Source: Methanospirillum lacunae (lineage in GTDB: Archaea; Halobacteriota; Methanomicrobia; Methanomicrobiales; Methanospirillaceae). Taken from it: a DNA stretch of 62,186 nt. The position numbers and the translations under genes were made by a program. The DNA lies in contig NZ_QGMY01000005.1 of NCBI RefSeq assembly GCF_003173355.1, forward strand, positions 1 through 62,186, read 5' to 3'. The notes under the pieces are model-generated. The model was not told where the DNA came from and searched no databases. It saw only the letters and a list, made by a program, of their open reading frames with translations. Shown here piece by piece: positions 34,424 through 36,372 of this stretch. How positions within the stretch are numbered: position 1 is the first letter of the stretch; the number at the start of each line of letters is the position of its first letter.

Positions 34424-34519
34424 GGAGTTTTTTGTTCCCTCATGTATGGTTACTTGATAAACATTGATAACCGAAGGGGATACTGAATAAAGTGAACAAT
34501 CTATTGGTTGTGATAAGAT

Positions 34520-34723
34520 ATGATTGAGGATATTCAGTATGTGTATAATAGTACCGGTCAAAAGACTGCAGTTATTGTTCCCATAGAAATCTGGGAGAGA
34601 GTCGGAGACATCCAGCCTGGAAAAAGAACTCATGATCTAACTCGATATTATGGTGCATATCTTGATTATATCTCCGAATCTGATACTGTTGCCAAGGTGG
34701 TCAGGGAAGACTGGGAACGTTAA
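34520..34723 (+). CDS. Small antitoxin-like protein (VapB-like)
   Basis: 67 residues: a short strand (YVYNSTGQKTAVIVPIEIWERV), then a polar helical tail. This is the shape of Phd/YefM- or DUF-type antitoxins that pair with PIN toxins. The stop overlaps the ATG of the following broken PIN-domain gene (TAATG), the usual coupling in toxin-antitoxin pairs. The coding frame itself is intact, although its partner is not, so it may be a relic or may still bind DNA. The call rests on context as much as on sequence. Confidence 0.55.
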   Translation: MIEDIQYVYNSTGQKTAVIVPIEIWERVGDIQPGKRTHDLTRYYGAYLDYISESDTVAKVVREDWER

Positions 34724-35100
34724 TGGATCAGTACCTTATCAATACCAATATTCTCGTCCATATTCTCACATATGATATCCCTTCTGAAACCAATTCACGG
34801 ATGAGTGAGATTTACTCTGGCGGTTTCTCGATCTCAATTATATCAAAAACCGAATTGCTTGGATAAAGGAATAATACCCCTGATGGGCATGCAACTGCCT
34901 GAGAACTGATTCAAAAGGTTGACATCCCCTTTTGATCAGGTTGCTGATATCGCAATAAACCTACGTCAGAATTATTCTATCCGTCTTCCTGATGCGATTA
35001 TTGCCGCAACTGTAACTATATGCGGACAATTTTGGTTACTAGAAATGTGAAAGATTTCCGGGGAATTGAGGAACTCTCGATGCACAATCCTTTTGGATAA
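34723..35100 (+). pseudogene. Degenerate VapC-like PIN-domain toxin
   Basis: Reading from the ATG at 34723 gives MDQYLINTNILVHIL, the N-terminal PIN motif with the usual catalytic Asp (LIDTN) replaced by Asn. The frame reaches ISIISKTELLG and then a stop near 34866. PIN-like sequence resumes in other frames: ADIAINLRQNYSIRLPDAIIAATV (quoted only as the D-A-I-I-A-A-T hallmark near 34985-35015), then KDFRGIEELSMHNPFG up to the stop at 35100. Total length is about that of an intact VapC (120-130 codons). At least two frameshifts or stops plus the active-site change indicate an inactive toxin. Confidence 0.75.
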
Positions 35101-35272
35101 GTTTTACACTTAAGTTTTTTTGGTCGACTGCTTACTCTGACAGTCTTTGCCTTCTTATTAGATACTTTATACTTTAGCTGTGTTTAGTTACCCCTTTATC
35201 TTTCGGGATCACCTATTAACTTTCAGGAATCAGGTATCAGTTCTGAAAAGCGACATTTTGGAGATAACTGCC

Positions 35273-36241
35273 ATGTCGGGTAGATACAAATCAGGTGTCC
35301 AGAAAAAAATTTTATTATCTTTCTCTCTTCTTCTCCTCGTACTGGCACTTAGTACCCAGGTATCTAGTACAGTGCCTGATCCGGCAACAAACATGACTGT
35401 CCCCCATGCGGTAATCACCGTGGGTGTCTATGTGATTGATTTCAAGCAATTTGACATTCAGGAAGGGACATGTGAGGTCGATTTTTATCTTCACTTGGAA
35501 TCAGACACACCGGTCACCATCAATGATATCGAACTGATGAACGGGGATATCATTTCAGCAGATCTGACTCACAGCACACCAAATGACAAGTTCTACCGGG
35601 TGCATGCAACTGTGAGCACTGATCTCACTCTCCAGAATTATCCTTTTGATTATGAGACCATCAGAATTGAGATAGAACCTAAAGATCTCTATGAGAATGA
35701 AGCAATTTTTGTCATTGATACCATCAAAACAGGTATTGACCCGTCTGAAAAGATAGATGGCTGGTCTTTTGTGAACGTGAGCTCAAAAGTTGATAGCCAG
35801 ATCTTTCCGGGCGATGGGGCAGCATACTCCCGGGCTGTCTTCAATTTTACGATGAAAAGAGAAGCCCTCTCTAATGTACTGAAATTCTTTCTGCCCATAT
35901 TTCTCATTGTCCTCGTCTCCCTTTTTTCATTATTGATGAAAGTGACTTCCCGCCTGAGCCTGAATTCCTCCATGTTTCTTGCAGCCGTCCTTATTCACTG
36001 GCGTGTTGTCAGTGAGATTCCGAACCTGTCGTACGGAGTTTTTCTTGACATTTTTATGGTCATCACGTATGCGACCCTGATAATGGTGTTGATATCAGGA
36101 ATCCTCAGAATACATTTCACAGACAGTGGCAAGATAACTCAGGCTGAACTGGTGCACCGCATTTCAATATGGTTTATCCCGGCCTTTTGTCTGTTGAATT
36201 ATCTCTGGCTTTTTTATACCCTTCGCACTGTAACATCCTAA
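35273..36241 (+). CDS. Pentameric ligand-gated (Cys-loop type) ion channel homologue
   Basis: 322 residues from the ATG at 35273 (GGAG nine bases ahead; the longer frame from 35180 is less likely). A signal peptide (about 1-32) leads to a beta-rich extracellular domain with VGVYVIDF and the hallmark YPFDYE (123-128), equivalent to the FPFD of the Cys-loop without flanking disulfide cysteines, as in prokaryotic channels. Four membrane helices follow: M1 about 203-222 (with the conserved Pro), M2 about 229-248, M3 about 255-280 and M4 about 297-316. M2-M3 (HWRVVSEIPNLSYG) aligns by eye with bacterial GLIC. The WxPD motif of the ligand domain is not evident. The ligand is unknown; a lone gene. 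Confidence 0.82.
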   Translation: MSGRYKSGVQKKILLSFSLLLLVLALSTQVSSTVPDPATNMTVPHAVITVGVYVIDFKQFDIQEGTCEVDFYLHLESDTPVTINDIELMNGDIISADLTHSTPNDKFYRVHATVSTDLTLQNYPFDYETIRIEIEPKDLYENEAIFVIDTIKTGIDPSEKIDGWSFVNVSSKVDSQIFPGDGAAYSRAVFNFTMKREALSNVLKFFLPIFLIVLVSLFSLLMKVTSRLSLNSSMFLAAVLIHWRVVSEIPNLSYGVFLDIFMVITYATLIMVLISGILRIHFTDSGKITQAELVHRISIWFIPAFCLLNYLWLFYTLRTVTS

Positions 36242-36330
36242 TATCCGGTTTCTGTTAATAAATGAGCCCTTTATCACCTCTTAAATTCAAATTTGGCGAT
36301 TTTAATGTGTATCTGTACCTGAGTGACTGG

Positions 36331-36372
36331 GTTTTATATGATTAATCGTGTAAAATATACTCGGGATTTCTC
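36331..36372 (+). promoter_or_regulatory. Probable promoter of the por operon
   Basis: TTTTATATG at 36332-36340 is a good TATA candidate. Transcription would start near 36360-36365, only about 10 bases before the TTG at 36373, so the mRNA may be almost leaderless; no Shine-Dalgarno sequence is visible. Confidence 0.45.

Follow-up and report, generated by a model that had tools for sequence, protein, structure and literature searches.

Pentameric ligand-gated ion channels (pLGICs) were reported from prokaryotes, including the archaeon Methanosarcina, in 2004 (Tasneem 2004, PMC549065), and a later survey describes ten more archaeal genera that carry them (Jaiteh 2016, PMC4795631). The archaeal proteins of these two studies, found in Methanosarcina, Methanobacterium and Thaumarchaeota, are Cys-less Pro-loop receptors, with the Methanosarcina type fused to MCP-N/Cache sensor domains; according to the authors of PMC4795631, none of the pLGICs of unicellular organisms has a known biological role. 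Bacterial members include GLIC, the proton-gated channel of Gloeobacter, as well as sTeLIC and DeCLIC, of which the latter carries extra N-terminal domains. Archaeal pLGICs are already known in general, and the protein described here is a variant: like those of the two surveys it is a Cys-less Pro-loop protein, but unlike the Methanosarcina fusions it consists of a bare ligand-binding domain and transmembrane domain (TMD), the former being shortened, and unlike DeCLIC it is of the short type. Possibly new is the compact, Pfam-invisible clade from methanogens with its own M2 signature, although some of its members may stand in the earlier supplementary lists. A text search combining Methanoregula with 'ligand-gated ion channel' returned no paper.

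The gene lies in a stretch of 62,186 nucleotides from Methanospirillum lacunae (contig NZ_QGMY01000005.1), in the following called the window. The presence of mch and methanogenesis marker 12 within the window identifies the host as a methanogen, and a porCDAB operon follows downstream of the channel gene. The open reading frame at 35273-36241 on the forward strand encodes 322 amino acids plus stop; an in-frame GTG is found at 35180, upstream of the ATG at 35273. Its composition is ordinary (GC 0.43 compared with 0.465 for the window), and the gene is present as a single copy in its own genome. Very large surface proteins with PKD-like repeats, named by eye, follow one another through the first third of the window (194-20815). 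The features of the gene are as follows.

35260 to 35263, forward strand: Shine-Dalgarno-like GGAG, 9 bases 5' of the ATG at 35273, read from the sequence.
35273 to 36241, forward strand: gene for a pLGIC-family subunit, based on the open reading frame and its translation, on PDB, ncbifam and fold matches and on purifying selection.
35291 to 35350, forward strand: N-terminal hydrophobic helix, probable signal peptide, residues 7-26, from the secondary structure of the model and hydrophobicity judged by eye.
35408 to 35860, forward strand: compact extracellular beta-sandwich domain (ECD) without the loop A WxPD segment, residues 46-196, from the model and the offset to GLIC.
35639 to 35650, forward strand: Pro-loop motif YPFD, residues 123-126, from the sequence and an alignment of 26 relatives.
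35864 to 35938, forward strand: M1 helix, residues 198-222, with conserved Pro208, from model and alignment.
35951 to 36019, forward strand: M2 pore helix from 0' (R227) to 22' (I249), from model and alignment.
35996 to 36004, forward strand: His15'-Trp16'-Arg17' clade signature in M2 (H 26/26, W 26/26, R 25/26).
36026 to 36124, forward strand: M3 helix, residues 252-284, from the model.
36134 to 36235, forward strand: M4 helix, residues 288-321, from the model.

Similarity to channels of known structure is significant already for the single sequence, for which phmmer against the PDB returned a GLIC-GABA receptor chimera (E 6.5e-10), DeCLIC (7e-9), sTeLIC (4e-8) and GLIC (6e-7). A profile built from 18 relatives reached the chimera at E 2e-23 and GLIC at 1e-19, and the ncbifam model TIGR00860 (LIC) matches the protein at 6e-10, a hit that stays below the curated cut-off. 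An AlphaFold2 monomer model computed from 17 sequences shows a signal helix, nine strands (46-61, 66-77, 86-88, 91-101, 105-116, 127-136, 144-148, 164-177 and 184-196) and four C-terminal helices, with M2 spanning residues 229-248. Its confidence is moderate (pLDDT 75-76, pTM 0.59) and nearly unchanged when the signal peptide is left out. Foldseek aligned the model over its full length with GLIC at E 4e-16, improving to 1e-16 once the signal peptide was left out, with a probability of 1.00, and sTeLIC was also among the matches. The TM-score is about 0.5 and the rmsd 7-12 Å across both domains; both domains match, but the interdomain angle of the monomer model is unreliable.

To judge the individual positions, we took the most conserved pLGIC residues given in Table 1 and the text of PMC4795631 as nine landmarks and scored them on 26 aligned relatives. 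All nine are found in the window protein, namely Y123, P124, D126, W164, R196, P208, R227 (0'), L236 (9') and P250; eight are kept throughout the alignment, while Leu9' is kept in 24 of the 26 sequences. The Pro-loop [F/Y]PxD at the tip of beta6-beta7 has P124 and D126 in 26/26 relatives and either Y or F at position 123 in 26/26, and the same full conservation applies to the aromatic residue of the ECD core on beta9 (W164), the pre-M1 arginine that partners the Pro-loop aspartate (R196), the proline kink of M1 (P208), the basic residue at M2 0' (R227) and the proline of the M2-M3 loop (P250). With GLIC the protein shares the domain order, the full-length fold, YPFD, the beta9 Trp, the pre-M1 Arg, the M1 Pro and the M2-M3 Pro. 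The Cys pair of metazoan Cys-loop receptors is absent around YPFD in the window protein. Other prokaryotic pLGICs likewise lack the flanking cysteines.

The initial annotation had proposed a pLGIC homologue in a methanogen from the order of signal peptide, beta-rich domain with YPFDYE and four C-terminal helices, together with a GLIC-like M2-M3 junction. Sequence, profile, fold and all nine landmarks agree with this proposal: every element of that order appears in the model, YPFDYE occupies residues 123-128, and the junction is EIPNLSY, whose proline, residue 250, is the one typical of the superfamily. At the monomer level, the structure prediction suggested as a check contains the beta sandwich as well as a helix of the M2 type, and its fold agrees with that of GLIC. 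The Pfam models Neur_chan_LBD and Neur_chan_memb, on the other hand, do not match the window protein at E<1, short of their gathering threshold, and graze only 1-3 of the 18 relatives with a best E of 0.05. This missing Pfam match is the one point in favour of an unrelated membrane protein made of a beta sandwich and four helices that came to resemble pLGICs by convergence, a reading to which we assign next to no probability in view of the significant E-values over both domains, the landmarks in their proper order and the top 50 Foldseek matches, which are exclusively pLGICs or pLGIC chimeras. Convergence is in practice refuted by the PDB phmmer, profile and Foldseek results. Annotation based on Pfam overlooks the family, so that archaeal pLGICs have probably been undercounted.

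The protein departs most clearly from GLIC in its ECD, where the stretch from beta2 to beta5 is about 26 residues shorter (residues 76 to 91 of the query against 45 to 86 of the GLIC chain), an offset for which both flanks align ungapped, the first of them matching weakly when taken by itself. All relatives share this shortening. The WxPE of GLIC loop A falls inside the gap, so loop A WxP(D/E) is missing, and the WxPD motif that had been noted as absent was indeed lost as part of this larger deletion relative to GLIC. The loop before YPFD, which had been called short, is of normal length, as the spacing from R109 to Y123 equals that from R105 to Y119 in GLIC; the shortening sits earlier, between beta2 and beta5. 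Because of this equal spacing, R109 corresponds to R105 of GLIC, which is the arginine that loop E contributes to the carboxylate pocket (PMC10859675), and this residue is common to both proteins. In contrast, E181 of GLIC loop C aligns with the aromatic Y185 in the profile alignment, and the GLIC pivot R77 is apparently replaced by E87, a position matched by motif only (FELMNG against IRFVN). Of a GLIC-type ligand site, comprising loop A WxP(D/E) and the R77/R105/E181 pocket, only the R105 equivalent is therefore kept, which bears out the earlier suspicion that the ligand site may differ.

Among the aligned relatives R109 and K106 are invariant, and E87, R109 and K106 as a group are invariant or nearly so. 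The invariant R109, the apparent change of Arg77 to Glu87 and that of Glu181 to Y185, thus three aligned positions, led us to guess, and it is only a guess from sequence, that the ligand might be small and charged, possibly a carboxylate, an amino acid or a zwitterion. A more far-reaching and rather doubtful version would see in the clade a methanogen-specific branch that lost the loop A/loop D part of the ligand site, acquired a new charged pocket from E87, R109 and K106 along with an outer Trp16'/Arg17' ring, and serves as a receptor for an external metabolite, possibly an amino acid or zwitterion.

Numbering of M2 was anchored on the M2-M3 proline 250 as 23', which gives R0', S2', S6', L9', L13', H15', W16', R17', S20', E21' and P23'. 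The HWR triplet is absent from the other aligned pLGICs, namely GLIC, the GABA receptor part of the chimera, DeCLIC, and the long archaeal and the bacterial forms. Compared with GLIC, the window protein has Arg for Asn at 0' and lacks the acidic -2' residue, and no acidic residue is present at -1' either. We deduce no charge selectivity from the M2 residues, since according to the text of PMC4795631 the M2 charge-selectivity site is not sufficient to set selectivity in prokaryotes.

Taken together, the gene product is very probably one of five identical subunits that form a ligand-gated ion channel in the cell membrane. Homology, domain order, the monomer fold match, the landmarks, purifying selection and the single copy support this directly, and because the gene is single copy a homo-oligomer fits. 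The pentamer, the outward orientation and the gating route would follow from what is general in the superfamily. By that analogy, the signal peptide would be cleaved off, leaving the beta-sandwich domain outside the cell, where a solute or protons could bind at the subunit interface. Binding would shift the Pro-loop with its YPFD motif against the region made up of pre-M1 and M2-M3, whereupon the pore, presumably lined by M2 with S6', L9', L13' and W16', would open at L9'/L13'. The compact ECD without loop A and the bulky Trp at 16' of the pore helix could also suit a pLGIC relative that has given up channel function and instead senses a ligand at the membrane or has a structural role; we consider this improbable, since the TMD is the most conserved part (between the window and G167, a second genome of the genus, dN is 0.06 and dS 1.44 for the TMD, a ratio of 0.04, against dN 0.19 and dS 1.21 for the ECD) and M2 and the gating landmarks are near-invariant in 26 sequences, as expected for a pore under selection. 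This small, bare and conserved archaeal family with its reduced binding domain would make a useful minimal model of binding-gating coupling.

Comparison with congeners places the gene within an insertion.

34424 to 36372, no strand assigned: inserted stretch carrying the channel gene, between methanogenesis marker 12 and porC.

The gap between marker 12 and porC measures 44 bp in six congeners and about 1.9 kb in the window and in G167, where the insert consists of a decayed VapBC-like pair, read from the sequence by eye, and the channel gene. The simplest reading of this lineage-specific insertion is a gain at an insertion-prone site, the alternative being loss elsewhere. The putative decayed pair at 34520-35100 of the window comprises an antitoxin-like frame (34520-34723) and a PIN-like start (MDQYLINTNILVHIL...) with an early stop, and G167 has a similar VapBC-like fragment at the same site. 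In G199 the gap holds a MntA-HepT-like toxin-antitoxin pair (L094 1499-2153), and in G200 an ECF-type transporter lies beside porC (L093 3133-6164). The channel copy of G200 sits on another small contig and falls among Methanoregula sequences in the tree, so mis-binning of that contig is possible. A conserved gene neighbourhood that might hint at a role was not found across genera; flanks are common to just the window and one further genome, the second of its genus, for which reason we propose no operon partner.

With the channel present in three of the 12 genomes of the genus, the 44 bp gap at the site in six others and the decayed VapBC-like pair next to it, the gene might be taken for a recent mobile import or a decaying gene that serves no function in this lineage. 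This seems unlikely to us, as the frame is intact in both genomes that share the insertion site and the whole-gene comparison with G167 yields dN 0.13 and dS 1.29 (dN/dS about 0.10). From the excess of dS over dN, we conclude that the channel gene was kept under selection since the two lineages split. Close relatives with and without the gene offer a natural comparison. Phages and viral contigs searched for relatives gave none, thus no viral origin is suggested.

Within Methanomicrobiales, short relatives with 37-80 % identity occur in one family, where 30 of 108 genomes gave matches at 1e-10 or better, a few of these being divergent paralogues and long forms. Named relatives belong to Methanoregula and other Methanomicrobiales. 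A wider draw across the phylum placed nearly all strong matches in the same family, with one outlier (G475, 8e-39). On genome contigs, a single-sequence scan found no relatives and an alignment-based scan found 16. The clade is patchy across Methanospirillum and Methanoregula-type Methanomicrobiales. In the tree the short family forms one clade (100/99) with the window protein and that of G167 paired, but it resolves neither the branching inside this clade nor the long branches outside it.

Upstream of the Methanoregula orthologues L003, L017/L044 and L035 we noticed a shared TATA-like box, followed about 25 nt further by GGAGANNGATACCATTTCC. These three have no ATG, GTG or TTG between the box and the signal peptide, and an ATT or ATC stands about 9 nt past GGAG, a hint at a possible AUU/AUC start codon against which L006 (stop) and L007 (frame) speak.

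Long forms of 620-690 amino acids also occur in the order Methanomicrobiales; the pLGIC-like proteins L022-L030, from other Methanomicrobiales, have large extra N-terminal domains and a DeCLIC-like size. L078 and L079, from another family of the phylum, comprise at least 702 amino acids with a pLGIC-like C-terminal half and an N-terminal half resembling Cache-type sensors, an architecture that matches the Methanosarcina fusions described in the text of PMC549065. Some Methanoregula-group genomes contain a second divergent short paralogue (L081, L021) with 26-28 % identity and YPFE instead of YPFD. Weak full-length relatives are found on Azospirillum and Streptomyces plasmids (L095-L098); they share the compact ECD and have F-E-(L/F)-(M/T)-N-(G/A) at the GLIC loop A position, but differ by their low identity of 22-25 %, a mostly longer beta2-loop stretch and the lack of HWR in M2. 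On an Azospirillum plasmid, genes for CheW and an MCP come immediately after the short pLGIC-like gene, which is annotated as hypothetical (L097 2279-5747), an arrangement that agrees with the chemotaxis idea put forward in PMC549065.
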